A program made the translations under genes and the position numbers. The notes below the pieces were generated by a model. It ran no database searches, was not told the DNA's origin, and was given only the letters and a program-made list of their open reading frames with translations. Of a stretch of DNA of 64,000 nucleotides, positions 8,839-57,831 are shown piece by piece; the stretch's first letter is position 1; each line of letters begins with the position of its first letter. Location: assembly GCF_001625215.2 (NCBI RefSeq), contig NC_030383.2, forward strand, positions 54,184,380 through 54,248,379, read 5' to 3'. Origin of the DNA: Daucus carota subsp. sativus. Taxonomy: Eukaryota; Streptophyta; Magnoliopsida; Apiales; Apiaceae.

Positions 8839-8850
8839 GCTCTGATACCA
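8839..8850 (-). promoter_or_regulatory. Primer-binding site (tRNA-iMet)
   Basis: The minus strand reads TGGTATCAGAGC, the classic plant copia PBS complementary to the 3' end of initiator methionine tRNA, directly next to the 5' LTR. Confidence 0.92.
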
Positions 8851-9225: not shown

Positions 9226-9303
9226 TGCTTGAGTTGTATTTTTGTCATATTTCTTATCAAAATAACTTAGGACACCATATAAGTAAGCTGTTGGAGATGC
9301 TTT

Positions 9304-20129: not shown

Positions 20130-20472
20130 TAGTTGAGAAGCCGCAAGATGCGGCGGATTATAAAAATTATATTAATGATTCAAAATTAGTATTTTTAAGA
20201 TAAAATAAATGTGTGGCAGTCTATAAAGATTATATTAATGATTCAAAATTAATATTTTTAAAATAAAATAAATTTTATATTATAAACATCCCGATGCAAT
20301 ACCAATTTTAGTATATAAAGTTACAAAATTAGACTATAATTCATGAGTGAAAAAAATGAAAATAAAATTCTACATATAATTAGCGATTTAAAGCATGACG
20401 AATCTTAATTTTAGCTGTGTTTTTTTAAAAAGTAATCATGTTTTTCACTAACATTGTAATTAATTTCCAAAC
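20130..20472. other. Intergenic, nothing recognised
   Basis: AT-rich. A short phrase (attatattaatgattcaaaatta) is repeated near 20168 and 20230. No gene. Confidence 0.5.
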
Positions 20473-20995
20473 GGGATAAATATCAAGTAGGTCACTTACT
20501 GCGTCCAAATGTATGAAATGAGTGACTGATTACAAAACTGACTCAATTGAGTCACTCATTAAAAACATTTGTATAAAAAATATCACTATATCGTTAGTCG
20601 AAATTCTGAAAGTATTATATATTGAGTTTTGCACGTTTTTTAATAAATGGTATTAAATCCAAATGAAAGGTTCTAGAAATATTGTTAGATTTTCAAAATT
20701 TTATCAACTATTAATTTTTAATTTTCGAGTGTTTTATTTGATTTAAATAAAAATAAATATTAAATAAATTTTTAAAAAACTAAAAATATTATCTAAAATA
20801 CTAGAATTCAGAATTTTTCATTTGGATGTAATACCATTCATAAAAAATGTGAAAAACTTAATATATAATACTTTCAGAATTTCGACTAATGATAAAGTGA
20901 TATTTTTGATACAAATTTTTCTAATGAGTGACTCATTTGAGTCAGTTTTATTGACTCACTTGGACGCAGTAAGTGACCTACTTTATATTTATCTC
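20473..20995. mobile_element. Fold-back MITE with 10-bp TSD (Mutator-type)
   Basis: A 523-bp element whose two halves are long inverted copies (left gataaatatcaagtaggtcac, right its complement). It is bounded by a perfect 10-bp duplication atttccaaac (20463-20472 and 20996-21005). A 10-bp duplication with long inverted arms points to a Mutator-type MITE. Diverged pieces of the same family occur inside the large MULE (about 50706-50790 and 49630-49745). Confidence 0.7.
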
Positions 20996-21432
20996 ATTTC
21001 CAAACACTACTTCTTAGACATATACACCATGCCTAACATGTAAAAAGCATGCGGCTCATTAACAGAACTGATTGATGACATCCGTTAGCTTGCAAGAACA
21101 TAATTGTGTAAAAGTCAAAAAGATATTGAGATGCAACTCCAAAACCATCCCCAGTTCTAATAGGGATAAAAATTATGTTCTACTTTTACGAACATTAATC
21201 ATGTCGGGACGTATGAATTCCAATCCATGCGAGTGTATATTAGTGACTCCTTCTTCCAATTTCTTTGGATTGGTTGTCCGTAAAAACATCAACTTAAATT
21301 CATGAGATAGCAGTCTACTCCCACATCCGACAAACTTTTACTCTTGTCAATCAATCATCTCTATCGCCATTCAAAACATCTATCATAGTGTAACTCTTTA
21401 TTGTATTAGATGGAGAAGATAAATAGGCAAAG

Positions 21433-34756: not shown

Positions 34757-34998
34757 TACAGGGTGTCCAGAAACATTGTTTACACAAACATTGTTTACAC
34801 ACAAGAAATCAGTTTGCCCTCACCCTCAAGCTCTTCCTTTAGTGGTATCGTCCTCGACCCCTTTACGGGAGGTTGAGAGTGTTAAAGGCAAAACTTAGTC
34901 CCGGAAAACAACTTGGTACCTGTGCGAAGAAACAAACATGTTAACATGTTACTAAAAGAAGTATCAGTTGCATGTTCCATAAGAAAATGAAATGGATG

Positions 34999-36810
34999 TT
35001 ACCAATATACATGAACAATGCATAGATGAGTCAGATGGTTATTAGGATTGTTTCTATCAACGGAAGCCAACATCCACAATATTACATAAGAAGAAATAAC
35101 AAGGAGGAATGATATAAAGACCAGGGCCATTAAAATTTCAAACATATTGCATCCAAGTTTCCGATCTCTCTTGCAGAGATTAGAATCTATGACAAAAAGA
35201 ATCATCACTCCTGTGAGTCTGCTGATGAGGATGCAGCTCCTAGTGAAATAAACAGAACAGATGTAACCTACATACAGAAAGTAAAAAAAAAAATGAAAAT
35301 TATGTAAGGATGCAGTAATCTAATTATTTTAAGAATATACAAGATCATTGTAATATATATGTATCTAAAAAACTCAGTGAAGTTAATCATTCATAAGGCA
35401 TGTTAATGAGTGCAGCTATGAATCACTTAAAAAGTGATGTAAATGGAAGAAAGTTCTCCTCCGTGGAAGGATTTCGTCAAAACATGTTACAAAAAATTAA
35501 TTTGAAAAAAGGGAAAATATTGCAGGCATTTCAGATAGTGCAATAGTTGCAGCCAACCTCTATCATTAGAACAGTCAACTGTGGGGCTTCTTAGAACTCT
35601 AATAGAAATTCCTTGATTATAGTAATTGTGTCTATGTTGCTTTGTTTACAGCACCATAATGCTCAAGTATGAGTGAAACTGCAACTACAATAATGAGAAT
35701 TCATGACCTGCAATACCTACCCAATCACCAACAACAAAGAGGCTCACTAGTATAAGAGCTTGCCGTCCTCTCTTCAACCTCAAAGCGTGACTATCAAAGC
35801 ATGCAGGTCCAGAACTCCAAAGAGCTTGAAGACCCATTGATGCAATTAGGTAGCTGAAACCAAATAACTAACAAGTAAAACTTTGCAATTAGTTAATAAT
35901 TAATACACGAGGCATGGATAAACCAATCAGGTAATCACTGATATATTTCAGTGTTGAACCGCAACAAACCTAAGTTTGTTGATGGCAAGGAGAACATTCC
36001 CACTATTCCCCGCTACTCGGTGATACATACAGAAAGGGTCCATTCAACACTGTGTTACTCTCCAGTCAGCTATATTCAACTTAATAAGATACAATTACAC
36101 AAATTCCTAACCCCACTCATCCTGTCATGCACCTCTAGTTTTTCCGCCACTCAAGTTACGTTGCCAAATGCCAACAAACAACATAATAACTATTAACTGT
36201 TTTAACTTTTAAACATGACATAATACAGGCACCCACCGGTGGCACTACAATTTTATTAAATCAACTCTCAGAGCTCGGTCTCAACATTTTGCAAAATAGC
36301 AGTACTCATATCGATCATCCATATACAATAAGCAACACAATATCTTTACATGTTCATCTTGATTACCAACAAGAGCAGTTGTCCTGGGCCGCTGACATAT
36401 AACACACATGTAAAAGATCAAATTTACTGTATCATAGTCATTGCCCAAATACAATAAGCAACACAATAACTTGAAAGAAAAAGATCTCGCAACTTCCTTA
36501 ACATAGTACCCTCAACCCTGTTAAATATCCTTTTTCGGGTAAATTTCTGAATTTTACCAAATACATTCTTGCAAATTACGGGGTACATAGATAGCATCAT
36601 AGTATAATGTGCCCACAACCACACTAGCTGCAGTAAATTAAAACAATTACAAGAGTGAAAAAAATTGAAAAATTAGCTACAAAAGCCATAAAAATATAAG
36701 AAAGCAGTGGAAATGGAGAAACCAGAAGCAGAGGCCATTGACCCAACAAAAGCAACAGCAAATAAAAAACTGCCCACTAGCTTCCCTGGATTCCCAAACA
36801 ACTCTTTCAT
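34999..36810 (-). pseudogene. CASP-like membrane protein, decayed duplicate
   Basis: Three exon remnants match the intact copy at 39432-41431. Exon 1 (start 36808-36810) has lost one base in the GGGAAAGCTAG context and a further 18 bp, which shifts its frame. Exon 2 (about 35720-35855) is intact in frame. Exon 3 (ending near 34999) has a 6-bp gain and an 8-bp gain (ACTCACAG) that bring a stop early. The last exon still shows the fourth membrane segment in another frame. Similarity extends into both flanks (about 34757 to 37000), so this was a segmental tandem duplication, not a retrocopy. Confidence 0.85.
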
Positions 36811-37117
36811 CTCTTTACAATCTTAGTATGATTCTCTGACCCTTTTGGAAAAACCATTTTTACTGAACAAGAAATGAAACAGTAGGTACTTTTTGAACAT
36901 TTTGCGAGTAAAAGCAGGAAAATTGGGGTCATCTGCTGTATGAGTTCTGACTACCGAGTTATCAGTTTGACAGCTTGTTACTCTTGTTTTTTCCTTTTTG
37001 TTACATGTATATTTGTACATGTTTGCTCTGTTCAATGATAACAACTTTTTTGATATGAGTTAAGTCACTAAACCCCTCAAAAGTATTAATTATAACATAT
37101 CGATTTAAATGTAGAAG

Positions 37118-38911: not shown

Positions 38912-39431
38912 ATCGTTAGAAGAGGTGTAAAATACATGTACATGGTACTTCTCACTGTCCTCTTAGAAATTTCGAAATTGTCCAAAAATAAGTTGGAAAA
39001 TTATGGTTGATAATGATATCCGTGACATGTCTATCTAGTATTAGTAACTTTTTTTTCTGAAATACTATCTTAAATTTGTCTTCCAATAAAATAATTAGAT
39101 ATATATGAACCGATTAATAAATATTTTGTTACCAGCTCGGTTGATCAGATTCTGGTCCACAAGGTGTCCAGAAACATAGCTTAGAACACTACTAACAAGC
39201 TCTTTCTCTAGTGGTATTGTACTCACCGTCTTTACAAGAGGTTGAGAGTATTAAAGGTAAAAACTTAGTGCCAGAAAACAGCTTGCTACCGGTGCAAAGA
39301 AACAAACACGTTGACATTTTACTAAAAGAAACATCAGTTGCATGTCTCATAAAGAAAAGAAAATCAATTTGTATTAATATACATGAAAACCGGATGGTTG
39401 AGTAAGATCCCATATGGTTATTAGGATTGTT

Positions 39432-41431
39432 TTAATCAACAGAAGCCAACATCCACATCATTACATAAGAAGAAATAGCAAGGAGGAACCATGATATAAA
39501 GGCCAGGGCTATTGAAATTCCAAACATATTGCATTCAAGTTTCCGATCTCTCTTGCAGAGATCAGAATCTACCACAAAAAGAATCATCACTCCTGCTGAT
39601 GAGGATGCAGCTCCTAGTGACAGAATAGATGTAACCTGCACACAGAAAGTAGGGGGAAAAAACGAAATTACGAAATTTATATAAGAATGCAGTAATCTAA
39701 TATTTTAAGAATATGCAAAGTGATGTAAATACAAGTTCACTCTCCTCCCTGGAAGTTCCCTTAAAATATGGTACTACAAATATATTTGAAAAAAGGGAAA
39801 GAATTGCAAGTTTCCTTAAAATATGATACATCAAATAAATTTGAAAAAAGGGAAAAAATTGCAAGCACTTCAGATAATGCAATAGTTGCCGGAAACCTTG
39901 ACAGTCTAATGCAATAGTTGCAGGAAACCTCGACAGTCTAATGCAAATGTTTTGTTTCCAATAATTTTTTCTATACTGCTATGTTTACAGCACCGTCATG
40001 CTCAAGTATGAGTGAAACTGCAATTACAATAACAAGATTTCATGATTTGCAACACCTACCCAATCACCAACAGCCAAGAGGCTCAATAGTATAGGAGTTT
40101 GCAATCTTCTCTTCAGCCTCAAAGCATGAATATCAAGGCATGCAAGTCCCAAACTCCAAAGAGCTTGGAGACCCATTGATGCGATTAAATAGCTGAAACC
40201 AAAAAACTAATGCAATTAAATAGCTTTAACCAAAAAACTAACAAGTAAAAATTTGCAATTATTTAATAATTAATAAACAAGGCATGGATCAAATAATCTC
40301 TAATTCATTTCATGTGTTGAACCGCAACAAACATAAATTTGTTGATAGTAAGAAGAACATTCCTATGAGCACTTTTTGCTCGTAATAATACAAGTAGCCA
40401 TTATTCAAATTTTCTCTAAAAAATAGTTTTACTGAAAGTACATTTGTTAACCTCAAATATGTTAAGGATGATGGAAAATAGCTTTCCTCTAGCCCAACAA
40501 GTCATGCATATCTCCCTAACACTAAGGTTTACAGTAGAAATACTTGCATTTGTGTATATATGGTTTGAGTGCATACGTGGCCTGAGCTTAGAGGAAGCAA
40601 CATAACTATTTCCCCTAAACCAACATATGCTATTTTGATTAATGAGACTTCTAATAATTCTAGAATCCTACTAGGATCTCGGTCAAACCGACCCGATAGT
40701 TCAATTAAAATTCATATGCAGGTTTAGTTTCAAAAAACAAATGTCAAGTCATTCATTCAAAAGGTAAATCTAAATGATGATTAGGCAATATCCATAACTC
40801 TGTAAAAATTCAATGGGACCAATACATACCTGATACCCAATTGAAATAATACAAATAAGAAATCGGAATTCTAGCATTGATCTCAAACTTGTCAATTAAG
40901 AAAAATACTAATCTTTCTACCTTTCTGCATAACATGCATAGCAGTTTGCCAAATGACCTGACATTAGCATAGCTTGGCTCCTAATTCTAGTCCTTCAAAC
41001 ATATAAGATTGGCCCCTAGTTTTTGTTCTAAAATTTAACTTCAGTTTACCAGACTTTAAATCTACCAAGAGCTATTTTCTCATCATGCTCGCTACTCTTG
41101 ATACATGCTAAAAGAATTGTTCAAGTTACTCTGCAGTTAGATATATTCAACTTAAAATAAAATTACACAATTCATGGTTAAATTCCTAAATTTACCAAAA
41201 AGATTCTTGCAAATTACTGGGCATGCCCATACCACACTAGCTAAGTAATTAAAATGATTATAAGATTGGAAAAAACTAGACGCAAAAGCAACAAAAATAC
41301 CAGAAAGCAGTGGAAATGGAGAAACCAGCAGCAGAGGCCATTGCCCCAACAGAAGCACCAGCAAAGAAAAACTGCCCTGTTCTTAGAAGAAGCCCACTAG
41401 CTTTCCCTGGACTCCCAAACAACTCCTTCAT
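39432..41431 (-). CDS. CASP-like protein (CASPL5 type), intact copy
   Basis: Three exons (41301-41431, 40060-40192, 39432-39635) join in frame through GT-AG introns, giving 155 aa. The sequence starts [10 protein letters not shown] and contains the family phrases [47 protein letters not shown] and [14 protein letters not shown]. These define a four-helix tetraspan protein of the CASP-like (formerly UPF0497) family, group 5. CASPs build plasma-membrane scaffolds at the Casparian strip; CASPL5 proteins are plasma-membrane proteins of less clear role. The length is normal for the family and no defects are seen. A decayed tandem copy lies at 34999-36810. Confidence 0.93.
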
Positions 41432-42682
41432 CTCTTTGAAACCTTAGTATGATTCTCTGGCCTTTCTGAACTAGAAAAGAGAAAAACAGTTTGGAACTTT
41501 TTAAAGAGAAAAGATGAGCATTGGTGTCAATATAATCATTTTTGGTCAATATATGATGTAGTATGTATTTGTTATCCGTAGAATATAGTATGTGAACTGT
41601 ATCTTAAACTAGGTTCATTTATTTATTGCAGAGAGAGTAAAGCAGGAGAACTCGGGGTCTTCTGCTTATGAGTTCTGACTCATCACGTTGACGATGACTC
41701 TTGCTTTGTTTTGCTTTGGTTACTCTTTAGATTTTGTGACAACCATACCTACATGTGCAATACAAGAAATAAAACATAATTTACGATACAAGTTTAAGTG
41801 CAAGTTTACTGAAGGTAGTGGACCTGGTAATTGTACTCATTATGAGATGTGTCAAATGTTTACGACATGAACTAATTATTATTAAAACGTCAAGATATTT
41901 TGGAAAGTGTAAAAAAGTTGCAAGGGAAAAAGTATGGTGATACTAATAGTAATATCATGCAGTACTCAATATTATAAAATATAAATGAATTTTATTAACC
42001 GAAGTAGTATATACAATAAATATTAATGCATAAATAAAAATAAAATAAGATCGAGTCATACTTTTGTGCTCGGATATGTAAGTCTCTTAAAATTTTTGCA
42101 CATATTTTTAAAGTTTCACAAATGAATTACAAAATATTTGCATTTCTCAAAAAATATTATAATTGGGTATATTAAAATTGTAAGTATAATTCATTTAATA
42201 TTTTGGAAATAGAAAACTGAAAAGGGGTTTTATGTTATTTAATATTTTTATTTTTGTATAAATTAATTTTTTTATAGATTATGTTAGATTTATAAATTTA
42301 ATGTTTAAAAGTTTAATATATTAATATATTTTTCAGTTACGTGGTTACAGAAAATTTAAAATTAGCATAAGCAAAACAAGACTTGGCCTCAACTTTATTC
42401 AAAAGTAAAGTTCAAAAGTGAGAACTAACATCCACGTTGGTGTTAGTGCTGGTGCTCAAACATCCACATCATTCACATCATTCATAAGTTTCTTCACTAC
42501 CCCTAAATAACGGAACCAATTATTATTATTATTATAAGAAAAAGTTTGATGTGGAGGTGATGTTAGTGATAGGATTGACGGATTATGTATTAAATAATGT
42601 CGTTTTAGTGTTACTTAATTAGTCCTGAAATCAGTACTCCTACGTCCAAAATGGAAAAGTTTGATGCAAAAGTTGGAATAGA
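41432..42682. other. Intergenic, up to the MULE insertion
   Basis: 41432-41740 is the CASPL promoter side and still resembles the flank of the decayed copy. The rest is AT-rich with an ATT repeat near 42521-42536. No gene recognised. Confidence 0.5.
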
Positions 42683-42692
42683 GGTGATTACT

Positions 42693-42783
42693 GGCTCCTT
42701 CAAATTACTGACCACCCGGAACAAAATCTTTACAAAACTAACCACCCAAATTTTCGTTTCACAAAACTAACCACCCTAATTCA
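42693..42783 (+). repeat. MULE left terminal inverted repeat
   Basis: 91 bp pairing with 54996-55086. The first 54 bp are identical to the complement of the right end, and the rest is mostly matching. It contains two copies of ACAAAACTAACCACCC. Confidence 0.95.
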
Positions 42784-42792
42784 ACACACCTC

Positions 42793-42890
42793 GGGCGAAC
42801 ATAGCAGAAAACTTTTTTTTCAGCCGAGATCAACCTACGGGCGAACAGGACGAAGCCACGGTGTTGTGTTCGCCCCTGCGACGGGCGAAC
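42793..42890. promoter_or_regulatory. Left subterminal GTTCGCCC octamers (candidate transposase sites)
   Basis: Four copies of the 8-mer GTTCGCCC or its complement: 42793-42800 (-), 42839-42846 (-), 42868-42875 (+) and 42883-42890 (-). Four more lie at the other end (54889-54984). Such end-clustered repeats commonly bind DNA transposases; this function is inferred. Confidence 0.55.
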
Positions 42891-43149
42891 ATGTCTGTGC
42901 AGGTTTGACGTGGCCGGCCCAGTCACGGGCGGCCACCTGTCCATTGAATCACACAAAACCTCCCCAGCCCCTCTTCTTCTTCTTCATTTTGCGACACCAG
43001 CCTCAATTTACACACACATTACACACACATTGCACACACATTGCAAGCTTGAATTTGGAGAAAAAAGTGAGATCCGGACAAAGAAAAGGGAAAAAGGGCG
43101 CTTGCTTTGCTACTTTCACCGAATCAATTAATCAATTTCACCCCATTTT

Positions 43150-44229
43150 CAAGGTTTTTTCACCATTCTCAATTTCATCAAATTGCATGCATGTATTTTT
43201 ATAAATTTTATAATGATTGTTCTTAGCTTGATTAGTAATTTTGTATGATGATTTATAATGAATGTTGTTAGTTGGTATTTGTTAGTAGATTATGTTAATT
43301 TTAGAAATTAGGTTAGTAGATTAAATTTAGAAATTAGGTTAGTAGATTAAATTTGGGTGTTTTACGTTAAAAAATAGAATAAAAATAAGCAATCTCACAT
43401 TTTCGAATTTAATTTGAATTATTTCGAATTTTGGAATTAAAAAATGGAATTATTTCGAATTTTGGAATTTAAAAAATATTATACCGAAATAGGAATTATT
43501 ATGAATTTTTGATTTAATTAAAATAATTTTCGAATTTAATAACAAATATTCCATAAAAAATTAAAAATTAGATCTCATATTTTGAATGAATTAAAAATTA
43601 GACTTGATTAGTAATTTGTTTGATAATTTATAATGGGTTTTGTTAGTTGGTATTTGGTAGTAGCTTATGTTAGTGATAATTTTAGTTTAGATTAGTAGTT
43701 GGTGATGATTGTTGTTGATTAGTAGTGGTAGTGATAATTTTAGTTTAGATTAGTAGTTGGTGATGATTATTGTATTATTTACGTTAAGAGTAGATTAAAT
43801 ATAATAAATTTAATTTTAGCTTTATTGAATTTAATGAAATTAAATTAAATCGAATTTAAAAGTAAACTTGACACCATTAAATTAAATAGATTAGTAGTGG
43901 TAGTGCTAATTTTAGTTTAGATTAGTAGTTTAAATTAAGTAGTGGTAGTGCTAATTTTAATTTAAATTATACAATATTATATTATTCCAATAAATAAAAA
44001 AAATCAGATTTTTAAAAATAGTTAGAGATAATTATTTCGAATTTAAAATTAAGTAATATAAAATATAATATAAAATATAATATAAAATATAATATAAAAA
44101 AAAAATTCAGATTTGTAAAATTAGTTAGACATAAATACATTTACAATTAAAATGAAAATTATTTCGAATATTGGATTTAATGAAACAATTTCAAATTTAA
44201 TAACAAATATTTTGAATTTAATTTCGCAG
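43150..44229. other. AT-rich leader of PMD gene
   Basis: Non-coding stretch between the terminal repeat region and the PMD start codon, probably a 5' leader or leader intron. A tandem acacacattgc repeat lies just upstream (about 43009-43045). About 550 bp (roughly 43510-44056) is duplicated at 45242-45862. Confidence 0.55.
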
Positions 44230-46532
44230 ATGAATGTCGGTCGTTCTGGTCCCGGACCTTTAGACGGGAGTTTGTTGACATTACAGTCTGTGCACAGGTC
44301 TCAGGTTGTGTGGGACAACATAGAGGTAAACTCCTTCTTTAGTGCAATTTTTTTTACATTTGTATGAGTCTGTAGCCTATAGGGACTAATATTTTGTGCA
44401 CTACAATTATTTCAGCCACCCCCTGATTTCAGATTGAGGACAAACTTTGGGGAGTATTGGAAGGCAGTTCGAGCCCACAGACCGCATCAGATGATCATGG
44501 ATGCAATCAGGGATTTAGGATTTGATTGCATATTTAGGCTGGGACAGTTCAAGCACGACAGGGGTTTGATTACAGCCTTTATCGAGAGATGGCGTGGAGA
44601 GACGCACACCTTCCACCTGCCGTTCGGAGAGGCCACTATCACTCTTGAGGATGTTCATCACATTCTCGGGTTACCCACTGAGGGTGATCCACTGATCCTC
44701 CGTGGAGCGAGTAGCAGCGTGGAGGAAAGGCGCGTGCTAGTAGGCGAATTTCTTGGGCTATTACCAGAAGCCAAGGACGATGTTAACCGAGGTGGTTTAA
44801 AGATCAAATGGCTTGTGGATAACTTCGGGTCTTGTGAGCGGTTGGAGCAGTTGGATCCAGAGGATATAGGTTATGGTGTACAGCTTACCTACCATATTCG
44901 GGCGCACCTACTATGCGTTATTGGATCATTGTTCCCCCACAGCAGCGGGAACCGCGTGCAGCTTGACCTTCTATGGTTAATGAGGGACATGGACCAGCTG
45001 CGTCGGTATAGCTGGGGTAGTGCTGTTCTTGGCTTCCTATACCAGAAGCTATGTTCTTCTAGCAGGGCTTACTGTATTGATTTCTGTGGCTACGCCACAT
45101 TGGTACAGGTAATACTAAACCAACCACAACTTTCTTTCTCGTCTTTATTGTTGCATTATTTATTCATCATTTGCACTTGTACTAACCTTGCCGCTAGGTG
45201 TGGATTTACGAGCGCTTTCCGTCACTAGCGTTTTAATTATTTGATTTAATTAAAATAATTTTCGAATTTAATAACAAATATTGCATAAAAAAATCCTAAA
45301 TATAGTACAATTTTTTCGAATTATAAAATTGGGAAAATTAGTGTAGATCTCATATTTTGAATGAATTAAAAATTAGACTTGATTAGTAATTTGTTTGATA
45401 ATTTATAATGGGTTTTGTTAGTTGGTATTTGGTAGTAGCTTATGTTAGTGATAATTTTAGTTTAGATTAGTAGTTGGTGATGATTGTTGTTGATTAGTAG
45501 TGGTAGTGATAATTTTAGTTTAGATTAGTAGTTGGTGATGATTATTGTATTATTTACGTTAAGAGTAGATTAAATATAATCAATTTAATTTTAGCTTTTA
45601 TTGAATTTAATGAAATTAAATTAAATCGAATTTAAAAGTAAACTTGACACCATTAAATTAAATAGATTAGTAGTTGGTGATGATTGTTGTTGATTAGTAG
45701 TGGTAGTGCTAATTTTAGTTTAGATTACTAGTTTAAATTAAGTAGTGGTAGTGCCAATTTTAATTTAAATTATACAATGTTATATTATTCCAATAAATAA
45801 AAAAATTCAGATTTGTAAAAATAGTTAGAGATAATTATTTCGAATTTAAAATTAAGTAATATTTATTTCTCGTCTTTATTGTTGTATTATTTATTCATCA
45901 TGTGCATTTGTACTAACCTTGCCGCTAGGTGTGGATTTACGAGCGCTTTCCGTCACTAGCGCCTAGGCACAGGGGTCAACCCTTGTTCGAGTACCCGCTG
46001 GCGCTGAGGTATGTTGTCACTCCTTTTGTTGATTAACTTCAATTCATATTTGTTGCATGTATAACCTCTGAGCACTTATGCCAACTTCCACTGTAGGTGG
46101 AAGGCGCCACTTAGGCGTTGTCAGGTGCCGCATGCGCAGAGCCGCATGACACAATATGAGTTGGATGCGTTGACACCCCGACAGTTTCGATGGAGGCCAT
46201 ATGCTGATTTACCTGCAGAGCATCACCCGGAGGCCACTGTGTACTTGCGTTGGACGGCTCCCGCCCCCATGATGTACATGTCCTACGTCGAGTGGTGCTA
46301 CACGGACAGGGTGACGAGGCAGTTTGGTTTTATGCAGGGTGTACCATATTCCTCTCCCTACCCTAATCATCAGGACCTGCACGACCACTACAACGAGCAG
46401 GTTGATTGGATGTACGCGAGGGAGCCATTTGTTGATCTTTGGGATACGCGCATGGAGCGTGCCCTCGCATCTAATATGTGTACAATGTATTATGCATTGT
46501 ACATGGGGCACTTCTTGTTCCGCTTCGTATGA
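44230..46532 (+). CDS. Plant mobile domain (PMD, MAIL-like) protein carried by the MULE
   Basis: Exons 44230-44325, 44416-45108, 45929-46008 and 46097-46532 join in frame with GT-AG introns, giving 434 aa. Residues such as FHLPFGEATITLEDVHHILGL, ERFPSLAPR and RWKAPLR are typical of the PMD (aminotransferase-like) domain. It is found in Arabidopsis MAIN/MAIL proteins and in many plant transposons. Host MAIN/MAIL1 act in gene expression and transposon silencing; the role in the element is unknown, possibly anti-silencing. A 43-bp overlap of its 3' end with the transposase end (46490-46532) makes the two genes convergent. Intron 2 contains a duplicated exon-3 start (see repeat at 45132-45960); splicing must use the downstream copy. 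Confidence 0.85.
45132..45960. repeat. Internal duplication inside PMD intron 2
   Basis: The intron end and first ~34 bp of exon 3 (gccgctag then GTGTGGATTTACGAG...) occur twice: around 45135-45230 and 45865-45962. Between them lies a diverged ~620-bp copy (45242-45862) of the leader sequence at about 43510-44056. The first exon copy breaks off after ...CTAGCG; the second continues into the full exon. Confidence 0.8.
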
Positions 46533-49292
46533 CCTTCTTGCTTGCACCGACTACATTTGTGTCCCGTTCGGGAACCGTCCATCTCGGTCCGTATTCTCAC
46601 CGACTGCCCCCTTTGGCCTCGCTTTGCTCTTCTCTTTCGCATGGCCTCGTTCGGCACCACGGTTCCATACCTTTGCCATGCTAATGGGAGTTGCACATCC
46701 CAATAGCCGGTTGCTGGTAACGGATATATCATAGGCTCCCACATATTTTTCAAAACGGGAGTGTAGTGGTAAGGGCCGATCCACTGTTTCCAGTTTATGG
46801 AATTACGATTACACCCAGCAATCAGATGAGAACATGGAAGGCGATGACAGGCCCATTTCCCGCACGTGCAAGTACCCCTTCTGATGTCCACGACTTGTGT
46901 GTTTCCGCCCTTTTCCACACCTTTCAACCTGTACCTACGCGTCTTTACGGAGAATAAACCACTTTGCCGGTTAAATGTTTCAACGTGGTGGGCGTTAGCC
47001 CTCTCAGTATTGGTTTCCAACATTCTCCTAGCTCGCAGGCAGAGTTCATGACCTTCTTGCATGCTTTCTAGAGCAGCGTTTCTCTCCTTGTTCACCGTCC
47101 TTACAGTTTTGTAAAAGAGGAATTCCATCATTGCGGTGACCGGTAGGAAGCGAGCTTGTCGAATGTTGCCATTGAAACTCTCCGTCACGTTGGTAGTGGC
47201 CTGGCCGTAACGAGCGTGGCCTGTGTCATGACAGATGGTCCACAAGGCAGGATTTATCTCCCGCAAATATGTCGCCGCTTGGGGAGAAATGCGGGCAATA
47301 TGTTTCATGTAAGCCTCGTGCTTTCTTATTTGTGGTGTTCGGCCTGCTAGCCACATGAACATCTTCAAGTCATTTCCCGGGTGATGTTTGGAGAAGTTGC
47401 TTCTCACATGGTGGAGGCAGTATCTGTGAACACCAAAAGGTTCAGTGAAGCCGTTGCGCTCGTCATTCACTGCAGCGAGGATCCCGGGGGCACGGTCCGA
47501 TATAATACAAACGCCAAGTCTCTCTCGGCATACATGTATTCGTAGAAGACGTAGGAACCAGGACCAGTTCTCCGTAGTCTCCTCATCCACGAGGGCAAAA
47601 CAGATTGGATATTGGTGGTTGTTAGCGTCCACTCCCACCGCAACCAGCAACTTTCCATTGTACTTTCCCTTGAGGAATGTACCATCAATTGAAATGACTG
47701 GGCGAGCGTGCTGCCAGCCATCAATGATCGCCTTCAGACACCAGAATGCGCGAACAAATACAGATTTGCCAATCTCAGTTTGATGTGGAACCGCATCAAT
47801 CTCCATTACGCTCCCTGGATTTGTACTTGCCATGACAGAGAGGAACCGTGGTAACTCATTATAGGTAGTCTGCCAATTGCCATAAAGGGTCTCCATTGCA
47901 GCCATCTTCCCCCTCCACGCTTTGCTGTAACTAACAATGTGCTGGAACTCATCGTTCACCATTGTTATTATGTTTGTTACCCTAAGATTTGGGGTTTGTG
48001 AAATCTGTTGAAACGAACAAGTATTAACAATCAAAAGGACAAAAAATCAGTGTCAATAAGAGACAATAGGTTGTGCGACTTACGTGTGGAGCAACCAATG
48101 ACCCTATCATTTTTGCTGAAATCTTCTTATGATCCTGTGTCGGCCTATCCAACAAGCACGTGTGTGTCTCAGGACATTCTGTGATTTCAAACATACCGTG
48201 CTGCTTTTTCTTCGCAGCCCTTAACTTCCACTTACAATCATAGACTGTACACTTGACTTTGTATTTTTGCGTAGTGCTTTTTTGCACAACAAAGTTCCGA
48301 TTCATTTTAATATGTGCCTCCTTAACCGCCGAGATTAGAACCTCTTTGTTACGAAACATGGCTCCGACGCCTAACTCATCAACGGATGGATTGAACCCGT
48401 GGGACATGATAGTGTCCACATTGGACACTATCTCAGTCTCGTACTGCTGAGATCCAAACCATGCAGCCCTTGGTACATAAACAGACATATCGCGCGTCTG
48501 CAACGAGGTATTCCCCTCTCGGACTTCATCCGAGTCGGCTTCTGAAAAGTCTTCAGATTCTTCCTCAACCTCTTCGTCTGACAGATTCCAATCCGAATCG
48601 TCACTTGTAGTTAATGCTCTTTCCGTGGCATTTTCTTCATCTTTTTCGTCCCCGTGAAGTGCAAGATTCACAGCTGCACTTCTGTCTCGCGTATGACGAG
48701 GCTGCGACAATTGTATGTCCTCCTCAGCAACTTTTGTATGCCCTACGGTCCCGTAGTTGTAGCCACTTTGGAATACGCTATTTGACCATCCGGCCATAGA
48801 CCCCAACTCGCTTCCTCCATAGTCGCCACCGTAACCCCCACCAGAGTTTCCTGCATAGTTCCCATCATATTGTTGGCTATCAAGAAATGTATGCGACTGC
48901 CCAGATTGTTGGGTCCATGGGGCTTCATAGGGTTGGCTTTGCTGAGCAACACTCTCAGCTTCAACAAACATCCATACGTCTCCCATCCCATACAAAAATC
49001 GTCCGGGGATGCTTAGCATCCTCCTCACATCGTCGTCCGACCTAATGGACTTTACAAAATATCCTGTTACGAGGTTACCGACACCAAGTCTAGGATATTT
49101 GAAACTCAGTTTCAAATTCCAGTGATGCCTACTTATGTTCATAACCTCATACACAATATCGTGTAACTCTTCCAATGTAGTGCCGAATTGGATAAACCTC
49201 ATCTCTTTTGGATCAGCCGTATAGATAACATCGTTATCTTGCTTCACGATTTCACCGCCCCAGAAGATGTTCACGTTTACGTAGCTTGCCAT
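46490..49292 (-). CDS. MURA-type MULE transposase
   Basis: Two exons (48084-49292 and 46490-48004) join in phase 0 across a 79-bp GT-AG intron, giving 907 aa. Order of domains: an N-terminal region with a Gly/Tyr-rich and then an acidic stretch; a MuDR DNA-binding domain (about 309-380, VGAMFRNKEVLISAV...); a MULE DDE core with D510 (SIDGTFLKG), D573 (IISDRAPG) and E678 (NVTESFNG); a SWIM zinc finger (about 782-795, CTCGKWACHRLPCSHL); and a C-terminal zinc knuckle (about 887-902, CSRCKQEGHTKRNKKC). All catalytic residues are present and no stops were seen. It would cut and paste this element and relatives with the same ends. A TATA-like site lies at 49401-49410 (-). No separate mudrB-like gene was recognised. 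Confidence 0.93.
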
Positions 49293-50706
49293 TTTTGTGG
49301 TTGTGTGTTTTTGGGTGTTTGTGTGCTTCTCTAATTTTTTAAGAGTTTCAAACTGGGTTTGCTGTGTTTAGATGTGATTCAATATGCATGGAGAGCTGCA
49401 ACATATAAAGAGAAACATACTGTGCATGAATAGTAGGCTAGCTAGTTGAATAATTGGTGCTTCACAAGTGTAATAATGCATAGGAGGTGACTATAAGTAT
49501 ACTGTGCATGAGCAGGAGGAGTTATAATTGCTCCTTTGATAAAAGGGGTTTCAAGCACTCGTACGAAACAGAAGCATTTACATAAACTTATTGCTTATGG
49601 TGTTAAAGCAATAAATAAACGGGATAAATAAACGGAATAAAAACTTCTCCTATTTATTTTTATTTAAATCAAATAAAACAATCAAAAAATTAAAAATAAA
49701 TAGTTGATAAAATTTTAAAAATCTAAAAATAGTAGCAAAAATTTTTCAAATGAGAACAGTCGTATCTGATAATGCAGAGGTTCACATGATCAACAGTAGG
49801 GCATAAATTAAAGGTTCTGCAAAAAGAAAAGCTGCAGTTCACTAGTAATGCAACATATAAAGAGAAACATACTGTGCATGAATAGTAGGCTAGCTAGTTG
49901 AATAATTGGTGCTTCACAAGTGTAATAATGCATAGGAGGTGACTACACGTATACTGTGCATGAGCAGGAGGAGTTATAATTGCTCCTTTGATAAAAGGGG
50001 TTTCAAGCACTTGTACGAAACAGAAGCATTTACATAAACTTATTGCTTATGGTGTTAAAGCAATAAATAAACGGGATAAATAAACGGAATAAAAACTTCT
50101 CCTATTTATTTTTATTTAAATCAAATAAAACAATCAAAAAATTATAAATAAATAGTTGATAAAATTTTAAAAATCTAAAAATATTAGCAAAAATAGTAGG
50201 ACTCGGAATCTTTCATTTTGGATGTAATACCATTCATAAAAAATGCGTGAAACTAAATATATAATATTTTCAAAATTTCCAAGGGGAATCAATGAATCCT
50301 TCAATAACATATCAAACTGCAATGACTTGTCATATCAAACTTTAAATATGAGTACTCTACTCGCCCCTTTAAATTGCAGTTACTGTTCTTCTGTGCATGC
50401 ATTACAAGTTTGACTGAAAAAGATACAAGAGGTTCTGCAAGAAGACATGGTTCACATGTGTACAGCAATAAGCATGACATGATAGCTTGACAACACACTC
50501 CAACTAGACAAAAAAGCAGCAGAGACTTGTCATTTCGAAATTTTAAACATGCAAGAAGAGCAGTGCAGGGAGTTGCCATAATACAAATTTTGAATTATGT
50601 CATAACTGCAACTACTTTTGAATATACATAATATTACAACAATAATTCAATGTGGAGCTGTCCTATAAATATGTTCTCCCCCATACATTCAACACATACA
50701 CTTCAC
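49293..50706. repeat. Promoter-like block 1 (between transposase and gene X)
   Basis: About 1.3 kb that recurs in direct orientation as block 2 (51567-52556). A part of it (atataaagagaaacatactgtg... to ...ctaaaaata) is itself repeated: first at about 49384-49745, again at 49860-50200. On the left edge it faces the transposase start (TATA-like at 49401-49410, minus). On the right it ends in TATAAATA (50664-50671, plus) and the same leader that precedes gene Y, but no gene follows here. Confidence 0.8.
50664..50671 (+). promoter_or_regulatory. Orphan TATA box copy
   Basis: Same sequence context (gagctgtcctataaatatgt) as the TATA box of gene Y at 52509-52516, but followed by remnants of a fold-back MITE and then the reverse end of gene X. 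A likely leftover of a duplicated promoter. Confidence 0.55.
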
Positions 50707-50914
50707 TCAATTTGAGTCAATTTGGAAATGAGTCACTCAATTGATACATTTGGACGAAACGAGTCACCAACGTGATATTTATCCCATAAATAAACTTAAA
50801 GGAAACAGAAGCATTACATAAACTTAAACGAAACAAAAGCATTACATAAACTGAATTTACATAAACTTAAAGAAAATTACATATTGTTTTCAAATGAGAA
50901 CATGACATAAGTTC

Positions 50915-51433
50915 TCAATCCTTGGTGATGTCCACAATATAGTCGGAACCATATTCTTCGGTTTCATCATCATCGTCCTCAGCGTCAACATCTCCCCAAA
51001 TTGCCCAATAATCAGCTTCATCACGTGCATCAAGTTTAGCCTGCAATGCATCGCATTCTTGCTCAATTCCAGCCATGTATCGATTGTAGCGATCATCAGA
51101 AAATGCAACACCCAACGGACGAAGTCTGTCTTCTAAAAGTTTATCAACTTCAGGATAACGTCTGCCCTCATCCTCAACCTCCTGCTCTGTCGGCACCCAA
51201 TCTTTGCCGTTTCGAGCTCTCCTAGTAGAAAACTTACGTTGCAAATAGTACGCATGATCCCGCTTGATCTCCAACGTCTGTGGTGGTTTGCTTTTAGGAG
51301 GTAATGCAGGTCGTTGGTTGTTTAGGTTGCTGCGCATCCCTCCCAACAATAGCTCCGGTTGTTGTCTTCTCTGTTGTTGCCGTTGCAGGCGTTTTTCGTA
51401 TCCGGGGGACATTGGCCTTTTACCCTTTTCCAT
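50915..51433 (-). CDS. MULE accessory protein X (unrecognised, acidic tail)
   Basis: A 172-aa single-exon ORF with a TATA-like site on the minus strand at about 51508-51516. I do not recognise a family. It shares with gene Y (52610-53254) the N-terminus (KGK/RPMSPGYEKRL), ELLLGGMRSN, RKFSTRRARNGKDWVPT, a helical block with FSDDRYNRYMAGI and ECDALQAKLDARDEA, and WGDV. An acidic C-terminus ends SDYIVDITKD. The middle is basic and rich in Gln/Arg; no membrane segment. Conservation of the coding frame in both paralogues, with differences concentrated in linkers, suggests a real protein. Transcribed divergently from Y; function unknown. Confidence 0.7.
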   Translation of the reverse strand: MEKGKRPMSPGYEKRLQRQQQRRQQPELLLGGMRSNLNNQRPALPPKSKPPQTLEIKRDHAYYLQRKFSTRRARNGKDWVPTEQEVEDEGRRYPEVDKLLEDRLRPLGVAFSDDRYNRYMAGIEQECDALQAKLDARDEADYWAIWGDVDAEDDDDETEEYGSDYIVDITKD

Positions 51434-51566
51434 CTTGGTGCAGTTGAAGTAATGAAAGAAATATTGTTTTCGATGTATTTTCGTAGTTGAAATGTTGAAA
51501 TTGAGTTCAATTTATAAGGCAAATGGCCAAGGAATTAATGTTAGGCAAAAAATCTTAGTAATTGGT

Positions 51567-52556
51567 GCATGGAGAGCTGCAACATATAAAGAGAAACATA
51601 CTGTGCATGAATAGTAGGCTAGCTAGTTGAATAATTGGTGCTTCACAAGTGTAATAATGCATAGGAGGTGACTATACGTATACTGTGCATGAGCAGGAGG
51701 AGTTATAATTGCTCCTTTGATAAAAGGGGTTTCAAGCACTAGAGTACGAAACAGAAGCATTTACATAAACTTATTGCTTATGGTGTTAAAGCAATAAATA
51801 AACGGGATAAATAAACGGAATAAAAACTTCTCCTATTTATTTTTATTTAAATCAAATAAAACAATCAAAAAATTAAAAATAAATAGTTGATAAAATTTTA
51901 AAAATCTAAAAATATTAGCAAAAATAGTAGGACTCGGAATCTTTCATTTTGGATGTAATACCATTCATAAAAAATGTCTGAAACTCAATATATAATATTT
52001 TCAAAATTTCCACTAACGATAGAGTAATATTTTTGATACAAATTTTTCTAATGAGAACAGTCGTATCTTATAATGCAGAGGTTCACATGATCAACAGTAG
52101 GGCATAAATTAAAGGTTCTGCAAAAAGAAAAGCTGCAGGTCACTAGTAATGCATTATTTTCAAGGGGGATCAATGAATTACAACTTTGACTGAAAAAGAT
52201 ACAAGAGGTTCTGCAAAAAGACATGGTTCACATGTGTACAGCAATAAGCATGACATGATAGCTTGACAACACACTCCAACTCTACAGTAATATGCATGCT
52301 TTGTATAAAGTACCTGCAAAAGAAAGCTGAAGATAATTTCAAGATACCCTAGACAAAAATGCAGCAGAGACTTGTCATTTCGAAATTTTAAACATGCAAG
52401 AAGAGCAGTGCAGGGAGTTGCCATAATACAAATTTTGAATTATGTCATAACTGCAACTACTTTTGAATATACATAATATTACAACAATAATTCAATGTGG
52501 AGCTGTCCTATAAATATGTTCTCCCCCATACATTCAACACATACACTTCACTCATT
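51567..52556. repeat. Promoter-like block 2 (between genes X and Y)
   Basis: A second copy of block 1 (49384-50706), about 1 kb. It lies between the starts of X (minus) and Y (plus), the position of a shared bidirectional promoter. It contains the atcttataatgcagaggttcacatgatcaac motif region (52069 on), which also occurs inverted upstream of gene Z. Confidence 0.8.
52509..52516 (+). promoter_or_regulatory. TATA box of gene Y
   Basis: TATAAATA about 100 bp upstream of the ATG at 52610, in a context shared with the orphan copy at 50664. Confidence 0.6.
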
Positions 52557-52609
52557 TTATTGTTTGTCATTGCAACACTTCTTCTTTTAATCACTTCAAT
52601 CACCCCAAA

Positions 52610-53254
52610 ATGGATAAGGGCAAGGCACCAATGACCCCCGGCTATGAAAAACGCCTAAAAAAACAAGAGAGAAGACAACCGGAGCTATTGTTGGGAGGAA
52701 TGCGCAGCAACCAGAACAACCAACAACCGGTCGTGCAACAAAAGCGTCGCCCACCAATGGGACGGATGGCGACGAATCAGCATCCAGGGGGGGCTCCAAT
52801 GAGCCTTAAAGAGGAGATCTTACAGGAGAAACGTCGCCAGGCCGAAGAGCACGCTCGAGAGCTGGCCCAGATGAAATTCAACAACTCTTGCCGCAAGTTT
52901 ACTACTAGGAGAATCCGAAAGGGCAAAGATTGGGTGCCGACATATCAGGAGGTATTAGACGAGTCCGAACGTTATCCTGAAGTTCAACAACTTTATTTTG
53001 ACAGACTTCGTCGGTTGGGTATCCCATTTTCTGATGCTCGCTACAATCGATACATGGCTGGAATTACGAAAGAATGTGATGCACTGCAGAAGAAACTTGA
53101 TGCACGTGAAGAAGCTGAATTTTGGGAAGTATGGGGAGATGTGCCAAATTTTCTTTATGATTGCAATGAAAAGCATACCTCGGTGGCCGCTGATGCTGAA
53201 GATGATGATGAAGATTATGATTCCGACTATTATGTCGACATAACTCAGGATTGA
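52610..53254 (+). CDS. MULE accessory protein Y (paralogue of X)
   Basis: A 214-aa single-exon ORF. It is longer than X because of a middle segment (ATNQHPGGAPMSLKEEI... EHARELAQM, charged and probably helical) and a short insert before the acidic tail. Shared blocks: PMTPGYEKRL, ELLLGGMRSN, RKFTTRRIRKGKDWVPT, RYPEV, FSDARYNRYMAGI, ECDALQKKLDAREEA and WGDV. The tail is Asp/Glu/Tyr-rich and ends YYVDITQD. No known domain recognised. It could be a DNA-binding or chromatin-acting accessory protein, but this is a guess. Mutator's maize relative also has a second gene of unknown function (mudrB); I see no similarity to it. Confidence 0.7.
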   Translation: MDKGKAPMTPGYEKRLKKQERRQPELLLGGMRSNQNNQQPVVQQKRRPPMGRMATNQHPGGAPMSLKEEILQEKRRQAEEHARELAQMKFNNSCRKFTTRRIRKGKDWVPTYQEVLDESERYPEVQQLYFDRLRRLGIPFSDARYNRYMAGITKECDALQKKLDAREEAEFWEVWGDVPNFLYDCNEKHTSVAADAEDDDEDYDSDYYVDITQD

Positions 53255-53459
53255 GAATATTAAAGACCTCGAACTTATCAAATGTACTTTTATTTGCAAT
53301 TTTTATTTTTGCAAATCGGAATGATATGAGCAATATCTATTTATATTAACCTAAACAAAATTATTCATATTACCGAAAAAACCACATATTTTAGTGCTTA
53401 TTTTTTATTATTGTTAATCCAAGCATTACATAAACTGAGGGATGTGTAATTTAAAGGAA

Positions 53460-53540
53460 ACACAAGCATTACATAAAATTAAAAGAACACAAGCATTACA
53501 TAAAATTAAAAGAACACAAGCATTACATAAAGTGAAAATA
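53460..53540. repeat. Short tandem repeat, ~27-bp unit
   Basis: Three near-identical units of acacaagcattacataaa plus spacer downstream of gene Y. The same aagcattacataaa phrase occurs near 50805-50865. Confidence 0.7.
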
Positions 53541-53574
53541 AAATTACATTTGATTAAAATAATTAAAATATTTG

Positions 53575-53970
53575 AAATGACAAGTCTCTGCAGTTCTTGT
53601 ATCTTTTTGAGTCAAACTTGTAATGCAGTAGAACAGTAGCTGCAATTTAAAGGGGTGAGTAGACAACTCATAATTAAAGTTTGATATGACAAGTCCTTGC
53701 AGTTTGATATGTTATTGAAGGATGCAGTTATTCCCCTTCAAAATAATGCATTTACAAGTGGCTAAAAATCTTTCCAGATCTGATTATAATTTTGGATTTT
53801 ACAAGTCCTTTGGCTTTAAGTCTAATGCAGCCTTACTTTCTGCAGAACCTTTACTTTATGACATACTGTTCATCATGTGAACCTCTGCATTATGAGATAC
53901 TACTGTTGATCATGTGAATATCAGCATTATGGGATACAACTGTTGATCATGTGAATATCAGCATTATTTC
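53575..53970. repeat. Inverted partial copy of block 1, upstream of gene Z
   Basis: 53575-53740 is the reverse complement of part of 50286-50530 (landmark tttgatatgttattgaagga versus tccttcaataacatatcaaa). 53840-53970 contains ctgttgatcatgtgaa-type units in tandem, the complement of a motif in blocks 1 and 2. Relative to transcription, gene Z therefore has related upstream sequence to the transposase gene. Confidence 0.7.
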
Positions 53971-53991
53971 GTTGCAATGTTATGCTGTGCC

Positions 53992-53999
53992 TATAAATA
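53992..53999 (+). promoter_or_regulatory. TATA box of gene Z
   Basis: TATAAATA about 70 bp upstream of the ATG at 54070, with a context (gcctataaatagg) like those of gene Y. Confidence 0.6.
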
Positions 54000-54069
54000 G
54001 GTTCACATACAATATGCACAATGCACACACAACCATAGACCTCACAGAAGATATAGTTCATCATAAATC

Positions 54070-54501
54070 ATGAGTTACACACCAGGTGATCTGTTTGTTG
54101 CCATGGGTAGAAAATGGTGGTGTGATGATGACTTTACCTACTCTTTAAACCCTAATTTACGATACTCCCCTCAGTCGATTACCACCATGTTGAATGAGTG
54201 GGAGTGGCGTGTGCGTAGGCATGAAGTGTGCATGGAACGTTGTGCACTAGCTGGGATTCCGATTCCTAAACGAAGGGCTCGTACTATGCCTCGAGAAACG
54301 CCGCAGCAGCTGGAGGCCGCCCTCTTCAGAGCGAGAGAAGAGGAGAATCGCATGAATCTGCGACTGCATCGTCAGAGTCTATACGATGATGCTCGGATGT
54401 TTCGGGAAGAAGGGGACCGGTTTAAGGAACAACAATACCTTGCATTGGTCACCACTCCGGATTATTATTCTGATAGTGTAATGTCGTCCGAGGACGATTA
54501 A
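54070..54501 (+). CDS. MULE accessory protein Z (unrecognised)
   Basis: A 143-aa single-exon ORF. N-terminal part has Trp-rich MGRKWWCDDD, then WEWRVRRHEVCMERC, a basic stretch PKRRARTMPRET, and a charged, probably helical segment (QQLEAALFRAREEENRMNLRLHR...). The acidic C-terminus is YYSDSVMSSEDD. No known family recognised, and no clear similarity to X or Y beyond the acidic tail. A TATA box lies at 53992; the 3' side has AATAAA at 54579 as a possible polyadenylation signal. Likely a third accessory gene of the element. Confidence 0.65.
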   Translation: MSYTPGDLFVAMGRKWWCDDDFTYSLNPNLRYSPQSITTMLNEWEWRVRRHEVCMERCALAGIPIPKRRARTMPRETPQQLEAALFRAREEENRMNLRLHRQSLYDDARMFREEGDRFKEQQYLALVTTPDYYSDSVMSSEDD

Positions 54502-54888
54502 GTGGTCTGTAGTTTCGTCGTGATTGTTTTCTGCTTTTCAATTTAAGTCGTGTTATCGTTGTTTTAATATCTTCTATGAATAAAAGTGCTGTGTTTGATC
54601 AAATGCATTCGGGACAAGATATTACATGACGTTTTCGGATTAACAAAAATAAAACAATAACAATATTATTTATCTTTTATGAGCTTAAATATGAACTTAA
54701 ATATTAAAATATTATATTTTAATATAAAATAATTTTGTAATATTATATCATTATATAATATAATATTATAAAATATAATAATATAAATTATCACAATTTT
54801 CCCTTTTTTTGAATTTTTTATAAATTAAATAAACGAACTGAAAAGTGAAGAATTTTTGAGCAAAACGAACAAAGAATTTCCCTACTAT

Positions 54889-54984
54889 GTTCGCCCGTGG
54901 GGGGGGCGAACATATAAGGAACATTCTTTGTTGTTCGCCCCTGGGAGGGGCCTCCTGCAAAAATTTTTTCTGTGGTGTTCGCCC
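54889..54984. promoter_or_regulatory. Right subterminal GTTCGCCC octamers
   Basis: Copies at 54889-54896 (+), 54904-54911 (-), 54933-54940 (+) and 54977-54984 (+), mirroring the four at the left end. Candidate transposase-binding sites. Confidence 0.55.
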
Positions 54985-54995
54985 CTGGATGATTA

Positions 54996-55086
54996 TGAAT
55001 TAGGGTGGTTAGTTTTGTGAAGTGAAAAAAAAGGTGGTTAGTTTTGTAAAGATTTTGTTCCGGGTGGTCAGTAATTTGAAGGAGCC
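54996..55086 (-). repeat. MULE right terminal inverted repeat
   Basis: Complement of 42693-42783; the outer 54 bp are identical. Confidence 0.95.
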
Positions 55087-55096
55087 GGTGATTACT

Positions 55097-55484: not shown

Positions 55485-55676
55485 TCCTATATACTAAAAT
55501 ACCTATGTTACTTATCTTGCGCGACCCATTGACAACCTCTTAACCGGCTAGATAACCAACTGATATAGTGCCAGCTTGCCTTCTTCGCGCCTATTAATTC
55601 CCGATTGATTGTGTTGATTGCTAAATACAGATTTCTTCTCTTCCATTATGGAAACTGCACGTAATCAGGGATGCAT

Positions 55677-55796
55677 TTTAGACTGTGCTTTTAATTTTTC
55701 AAAATTCAAACATAATTTCTTTGCTTGCTGTCAAAGAGTTCTTGTGTGGGTTTGTAGAGTGGTTTTTGACAGTATTCTTGCTGGCTATGGATTCAC
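55677..55796 (+). repeat. Direct repeat, copy 1
   Basis: About 120 bp nearly identical to 56383-56502 (starting ttttagact-tgcttttaattttt, ending ggctatggattcac). Confidence 0.85.
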
Positions 55797-55928: not shown

Positions 55929-57831
55929 GGTCGGAAGAGGAACAAAGAAAATCAATCAGATGCTTCACTTGCTGGTATTCGCGAAACAATTGCCTCACAT
56001 TCATCATTTGAGCCGTGTTTCTTTAGCTTAGGAACACCACGTGTTTGTGTTTTCAATTCATAACCGACACATTGTGGCAGGTATTCGTCAACAAGGTTCT
56101 GAAAATGCTCTGGATTTGTTCCTACAAAGACGCGCTGAAATCATTAAGAGATCCAGGACCATCGGCACTTCGTCAGAGTTCGACAAAAACAGCAGAGGTA
56201 AGAATAGTATCCGCGCATTGTCATTGTGTGCAATTGTTGATTTGTGATCGATGTCTTACACCGTCATGGTCATTCTGCGCTTTTTATCATTGCAGCCACG
56301 AGTCAGGTCCCTCTATCAACTATTGATCAGAGTGCATCATATCAATGTGAGTTCAAACATAATTTTAGACTATGCTTTTAATTTTAGACTATGCTTTTAA
56401 TTTTTCAAAATTCAAACATAATTTCTTTGCTTGCTGTCAAAGAGTTCTTGTGTGGGTTTGTAGAGTGGTTTTTGACAGTATTCTTGCTGGCTATGGATTC
56501 ACAGATTATGTTTCTTTCTAGAGTCACTTCACTGTGTCCAATGTTGATCTTTCATTTGTCTTGCAGCAATCAGGCGTGCCCGGTTGTCCAATTTTGATCA
56601 AAATCCAAGCCCTGGCTCTGTGTTGGATTCTACCGTCACAAACGTGATGCCTTCTACCAATGCAGCCACAGGTTGGATTCAAGTAATTTTAAATAATTTT
56701 TCAAAATAAAATTACATCACTTTTTCCAAAACAATACTAAATATTTGGTGTTAGTTAACTGAAGAAGCATGACATATTAAGAAATTGAAACATTCTATTC
56801 ACCAGGCTTGGAAATATTTTATTTATTCATTAAAATAGTATTTGAGAAGGAGTACATGTTTAAAATGCCTTTCTATTGGCGTCCTCCGAGTAGACATATT
56901 GAAATCTACACTAAATTGCTAAGAGCTACTAATTCCCAACTCACTTAAGAGTGTTGTTAATAGTCTACTGTAAATGATCTAAGCCAAATGAATATTGTTT
57001 TCTGAGCTGGCAAGGCAGTGGAAGTTTAGACTGAAGGCTTAAAGATGCATCATACACTTCTGGTAAACCAGCAAGTGATTTGAATTATGCACGTTGCTCC
57101 ATCGTCACCTTGATCCGTAAAGTGGGGTCATTTCTATGGGTAAAACCTCTAAAATCTTAACCTCATAACTTGAGTTTCTGAATAAAGGCCATCAAGAAGA
57201 GGAGCAATTTTAAAAAGAATCATCAGAAGACCAACAGGTTCACTTCTGAACCCTCTGCAGAGAGAAGTATTTTAGTAACGTTGTTTTATGTTTAATGTAG
57301 TTCTTTTGCGGGCATAAATATAACTTGAACGAATTTCACACATATATTATATAAATGTAGCTGCCAAACGTAGAGGAAGAGGTCCTGGAATAGAAAAGCT
57401 CTATGCGCAGAAGCTTGCCAGCCATTCTCCAAATGTGTCAAACCATCACACCTTAACTAAAGAAGGTATTATCTATACTACGCCAAGCAATATAATTGAC
57501 ATTCCAAATTCACACACATATTTACCATGCTCTGTGCATAGTCTGTTGTAATGGTCAACTATGAGTAGGACGATGTGCAGCTTCCATTGTTAATATTATC
57601 AGTAATTGATAAAGTGTTTTACTTTTAATATATGTTTTAATTTTCTTGACTGGCAACAATTCCAGATCGAGGTGTATAGATACCTCCATTTACTAATTTA
57701 AAAAGTAATCAGACTCGGATTGATCCACGCATTGTAGAAAGCTCTGTTTCAGCCAAACATAAAGAAAATTACCGTCTCATTATAACAACTGCTCTGGAAC
57801 CTGAGCAAATTTGGCTAAAGCGACCTGGTAA
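55929..57831 (+). pseudogene. Decayed multi-exon gene, possibly Helitron-encoded N-terminus
   Basis: Several exon-like pieces with good splice sites: about 55930-55975 (RKRNKENQSDASLAG), 56081-56199 (LQRRAEIIKRSR), 56295-56346, 56565-56671, 57359-57467 (AAKRRGRGPGIEKLYAQKLA) and 57667-57830. The last has an in-frame stop a few codons in (DRGV, stop). The basic RRGRGPG...KLYAQKLA phrase reminds me of the N-terminal part of plant Helitron Rep/helicase proteins, but I am not certain. No helicase motifs follow. Confidence 0.4.
56383..56502 (+). repeat. Direct repeat, copy 2
   Basis: Matches 55677-55796 almost base for base; lies in an intron-like stretch between exon pieces of the decayed gene. 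Confidence 0.85.

Follow-up and report, generated by a model that had tools for sequence, protein, structure and literature searches.

A deletion copy of a nine-gene Mutator-like element in carrot and its accessory gene set

The 64,000-nucleotide stretch of Daucus carota subsp. sativus analysed here (NC_030383.2, positions 54,184,380 to 54,248,379 of the forward strand; hereafter the window) contains a Mutator-like element (MULE) of 12,394 bp at window positions 42693-55086. The 10-bp target site duplication (TSD) GGTGATTACT is found in identical form on its left (42683-42692) and right (55087-55096). The element is bounded by perfect 54-bp terminal inverted repeats (TIRs) at 42693-42746 (+) and 55033-55086 (-), whose similarity extends further inwards, imperfectly. 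Both the perfect TSD and the 54-bp terminal match had been reported in an earlier note on this DNA, and our comparison of the two ends bears them out. TIRs, a TSD within the 8-11 bp of the MULE superfamily (10 bp here and 9-10 bp in five more elements) and a transposase with a MULE (DDE) domain all place the element in this superfamily. It is well supported that the window holds a real MULE with an accessory-gene set, and that this copy is not intact.

Inside the TIRs, each end carries an array of four copies of the 9-mer GGGCGAACA. The left array (42793-42891, +) has its motifs at offsets 100, 146, 174 (reversed) and 190, and the right array (54888-54984, -) mirrors it with offsets 102, 146, 174 (reversed) and 190. 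All eight copies of the 9-mer in the window fall inside these two subterminal arrays. The 7-mer core GGCGAAC was observed four times per end, compared with at most once in 500 shuffles of each end region. Ungapped, the two ends agree at 31 of 36 positions in the four motifs versus 28 of 77 between and beside them. Complete arrays are present at both ends in five of seven fully read copies, while C6:6878489-6897362 and C6:6901394-6920279 each miss one motif at one end. The interior of five other scanned copies holds 4-6 GGGCGAACA each, so that there the motif also occurs away from the ends.

The transposase lies on the minus strand in two exons, the first carrying DBD_Tnp_Mut (48084-49292) and the second the MULE domain, SWIM and zinc knuckle (46490-48004). 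As for all genes in the window, the splice sites are predictions. The spliced product has 907 amino acids (aa) and a single stop, at its end. Pfam searches identified MULE (DDE) (PF10551, E 2e-19) and DBD_Tnp_Mut (E 9.6e-10); SWIM scores just over the Pfam cut-off and the zinc knuckle under it. The previously claimed intact transposase with D/D/E, SWIM and zinc knuckle is thus confirmed as an open frame with a DDE domain, a marginal SWIM and a sub-threshold knuckle. No TATAAA-type box was found within 200 bp upstream of the gene.

On the plus strand, antisense to the transposase as in the MUDR group with antisense PMD, lies a PMD gene with predicted exons at 44230-44325, 44416-45108 (which contains the Pfam PMD match), 45929-46008 and 46097-46532. 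The PMD match extends over two exons (PF10536, E 3.2e-41). Exon 4 is cut off at a deletion junction, the pentamer CATCT at 46468-46472, and its final 19 codons are not PMD sequence. A decoy of the first 33 bp of exon 3, with the same acceptor, is located at 45198-45230 and would yield a 275-aa product if used. A 100-bp direct repeat (96%; 45131-45230 and 45862-45961) lies within intron 2 and reaches into the first part of exon 3. It flanks a 631-bp block mostly copied from 43569-44059, and part of this arrangement is absent from C1:36.51.

Three further genes, X (50915-51433, -, 172 aa), Y (52610-53254, +, 214 aa) and Z (54070-54501, +, 143 aa), occupy the right part of the element. All three are open and have a TATAAAT about 78-101 bp 5' of their ATG, as the earlier note had proposed. 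X and Y are paralogues with 55% identity across the aligned part, while BLASTP gave no meaningful match between Z and Y. Searches of X, Y and Z against Pfam and NCBIfam matched no family, and their relatives yielded no DUF1985 and no convincing match in Pfam.

Pieces of the intergenic block upstream of the transposase (49385-50713) recur at 97-99% identity in the interval separating X from Y (51566-52558). Three copies of CTACTGTTGATCATGTGAA with 0-2 mismatches are spaced by 37 bp upstream of Z (53863-53955, +), and exact copies occur at 49781 and 52082 (minus strand), one per repeated block. Elsewhere in the window, allowing up to four mismatches, there is a single match, with four mismatches, at 7939. 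The same five places were found again in a nine-gene copy described below, and we regard CTACTGTTGATCATGTGAA as a shared putative promoter module. The repeated blocks also contain twin open reading frames (ORFs) with MATPCTALLACLKF near their start (50301-50594 and 52170-52439, minus); a candidate ORF of this kind, 115 aa long, occurs twice in C5:12.35 and also in C2:58.97.

We searched 441,086,747 bases of the genome in 11 contigs for other copies. The first 120 bases of the element gave 46 matches, each element matching with both of its ends. Since just 40 of the 190 candidates were scored, the copy numbers given here are minimum values. Six further copies were read end to end and one, at C2:50.27 Mb, in part. 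TSDs flank C1:36510293-36525787 (9 bp), C5:12347711-12367243 (10 bp), C6:39906651-39922735 (10 bp) and C2:58967779-58986700 (10 bp, GACTCTGAAG), whereas C6:6878489-6897362 and C6:6901394-6920279 are part of a tandem array, abut their neighbours and have no TSD. Nine genes are open in C2:58967779-58986700, where PMD was judged per exon, and in C6:6878489-6897362. Complete copies measure 18.9 kb and carry seven small genes beyond the transposase and PMD. Two of these are GRF genes (Pfam Zn_ribbon_GRF, E 1.5e-7 and 1.1e-5); GRF2 scores exactly at the Pfam cut-off, which weakens its assignment.

The window copy has lost roughly one third of a larger element with nine genes that other loci in the genome retain. 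Compared with C6:6878489-6897362 about 6.3 kb are missing, and compared with C2:58967779-58986700 6,953 bp. All six other fully read copies hold sequence, whole or in part, at the position of window 46468-46472; the segment is partly missing in the C1 copy, which lacks two GRF genes, and in C6:39.91, which lacks part of the PMD C-terminus. The simplest reading of the aligned copies is a microhomology deletion, because CATCT is present at both ends of the extra segment, no inverted repeats of its own were found at the threshold used, and the PMD frame runs on past the junction into the segment. The spliced PMD model reaches 723 aa in C6:6878489-6897362 versus 434 aa in the window, where the frame stops 19 codons beyond the junction. 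The apparent overlap of PMD and transposase at 46490-46532 is likewise due to the deletion. Conversely, the window copy could represent the ancestral compact form, the other copies having gained the extra segment by nested insertion. In favour of this, a 60-bp copy of a terminal repeat lies inside the segment. However, its edges share CATCT alone and it shows no inverted repeats of its own at that threshold; moreover, the 723-aa PMD frame crosses the junction and every other fully read copy retains at least part of the segment, which makes an insertion highly improbable. The earlier note had described an apparently intact element with five genes, including an intact PMD gene. Its reading of a multi-gene MULE with an accessory set holds for the set, but the copy is not intact, its PMD gene is truncated and its five genes are the remainder of nine.

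Several observations touch on the copies themselves. The internal 60-bp terminal-repeat copy lies between PMD and GRF1 at element positions 4928-4988 of C5:12347711-12367243, and is also found in C2:58.97 and further copies; the arrangement looks like a fusion of two neighbouring MULEs. C6:6877900-6920900 is a head-to-tail MULE array with directly abutting ends and no TSD between them; its units measure 18.9 kb, 4.0 kb and 18.9 kb, with partial neighbours, and the two of 18.9 kb share 99.2% identity. Three of its four junctions read GGAGCC|GGCTCC, and the fourth is one base shorter. The element at C5:13825483-13840331, 14.8 kb long, has related ends and a TSD of 10 bp; it matched none of the five window proteins and is probably a non-autonomous relative.

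The earlier note had asked whether X, Y and Z always travel with this transposase clade. Among 52 long Z matches, 47 have an X/Y match no more than 10 kb away (chance, about 0.5%). Two diverged MULEs carry related sets: C1:10498701-10505276 has a Y-like gene, Z and a transposase between related ends, and C2:28.337-28.347 Mb has two X/Y relatives, Z and a transposase that is 57% and 76% identical in its two parts to the one here. Z was further compared with 14 relatives, picked among stop-free matches, which biases the test towards a low ratio of nonsynonymous to synonymous divergence (dN/dS). Eight relatives at dS 0.12-0.14 gave ratios of 0.51-0.61, one at dS 0.17 gave 0.36, four at dS about 0.29 gave 0.28-0.29, and the one at dS 1.42 gave 0.12. 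Z shows longer-distance purifying selection, although young copies appear neutral. Over all aligned codons, X against Y gives dN 0.21 and dS 0.57, which points the same way.

From the linkage of Z with X/Y, the two diverged MULEs and the selection on Z, we conclude that X, Y and Z, as far as these comparisons reach, are not chance captures. The competing view is an ordinary MULE in which they are host gene fragments picked up by chance, as in Pack-MULEs. Host sequence is often captured by MULEs, as described in sections of PMC13317346, and in young carrot copies the pooled counts for the seven small genes are 19 nonsynonymous against 7 synonymous changes, near the 2.6-3.0 to 1 expected under neutrality. 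At this depth, the accessory genes thus give no sign of present selection; for the transposase of the same copies, the counts are 12:3 in exon 1 and 5:6 in exon 2. This neutral ratio weighs against a maintained gene set, as do the five of 52 long Z matches without an X/Y match inside 10 kb, the stops in the transposases of both diverged relatives (and in the Y-like gene of one), and the comparison of X with Y, where the conserved core gives dN 0.18, dS 0.32 and dN/dS 0.56. In view of the linkage, the diverged MULEs and the pattern in Z, we nevertheless consider chance capture very unlikely.

We infer that X, Y and Z may be transposition or anti-silencing cofactors. An acidic run and then Y(I/Y)VD(I/L)T(Q/K)D form the C-terminal tail of eight of 12 X/Y database sequences, X and Y of the window among them; in the remaining four this end is missing, and the C-terminus of W is unlike it. 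Ulp1 is a SUMO protease. A strong SUMO-interacting motif has a VIDLT core, according to PMC3901395, and the X/Y tail resembles it, a motif-level lead. Two proteins of Arabidopsis silencing, MOM1 and PIAL2, have been linked to SUMO (PMC6084981). Speaking against a confident assignment, the SUMO link is purely a motif match, the structure model of Y is poor (pLDDT 61), and the predicted fold of Z found no convincing structural match.

Two more specific roles can be drawn by analogy. X, Y and Z could be VANC-like, sequence-specific anti-silencing factors that bind repeated noncoding modules, as in VANDAL elements. Repeated noncoding blocks do lie 5' of the transposase and of Z and in the interval separating X from Y, and VANC targets form tandem repeats according to PMC10398659 and PMC5735166; some VANC genes also carry an Ulp1 domain (PMC13317346), and X/Y have the SUMO-interacting-motif-like tail. 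However, X, Y, Z and their relatives gave no DUF1985 match and no convincing Pfam match, and PMC6446971 describes VANDALs as having degenerate TIRs or none, although some do possess them. We see this role as a tentative possibility. Alternatively, they could act like maize MURB, which is required for the integration step. The compact relative C1:10498701-10505276 retains just the Y-like gene, Z and the transposase of the nine proteins searched, just as MuDR is said in part of PMC6446971 to retain mudrA and mudrB. In contrast, X, Y and Z are small proteins, either helical or disordered, that have no recognised domain, and with MURB compared by description only, a MURB-like function appears rather doubtful.

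Other features of the window lie outside the MULE. At 3937-9226, an element with a 1,486-aa open frame, which we take to be Copia, has 376-bp long terminal repeats (3937-4312 and 8851-9226) that are 99.5% identical, and is probably a recent insertion. A direct duplication of about 2 kb (34827-36845 and 39196-41465; pieces 78-83% identical) flanks a 614-aa ORF, presumably PPR-like. Just beyond the MULE, a 122-bp direct repeat (55675-55796 and 56381-56502) has 99.2% identity. A 530-bp palindrome at 20469-20999, a fold-back element, has arms that match the MULE intergenic blocks 49651-49731, 50103-50279 and 51834-52055, so the MULE probably harbours a related, nested repeat.

The overall organisation is reminiscent of the MUDR-type MULEs with antisense PMD that are tabulated in PMC6446971 (group 50), which share TIRs, 9-10-bp TSDs, a SWIM/CCHC transposase and PMD on the opposite strand. 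Unlike these, complete copies here have seven extra small genes and 18.9 kb; the likeness drawn here is one of gene arrangement. Barley Hvu_Abermu (PMC9168764), compared by its description, is likewise a large element bounded by TIRs, with one ORF of unknown function on the same strand and a further ORF on the opposite one, but has three ORFs in 8.2 kb. VANDAL21 carries VANA, VANB and VANC (PMC5735166, in part). VANDAL elements thus also combine a transposase with accessory genes and have repeated noncoding blocks, whereas our element has perfect 54-bp TIRs, and no DUF1985-type VANC protein was found in it. MuDR similarly joins a transposase and an accessory gene (mudrA, mudrB) in one element, with fewer accessory genes than here. 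The most coding-rich MULEs that we found in the open-access literature, in the texts accessible to us, have three ORFs, compared with nine here. A search of that literature without the term GRF, with subscription papers and Repbase outside its range, returned no description of the nine-gene set, and 'GRF' is absent from the main texts of PMC6446971, PMC9168764 and PMC13317346.

With its nine genes and its three multi-copy families of small accessory genes, of which at least Z is under longer-distance purifying selection, the element would allow a direct test of the role of accessory genes in a plant transposon. The window copy and the other deletion copies provide natural gene-removal variants for this within one genome.
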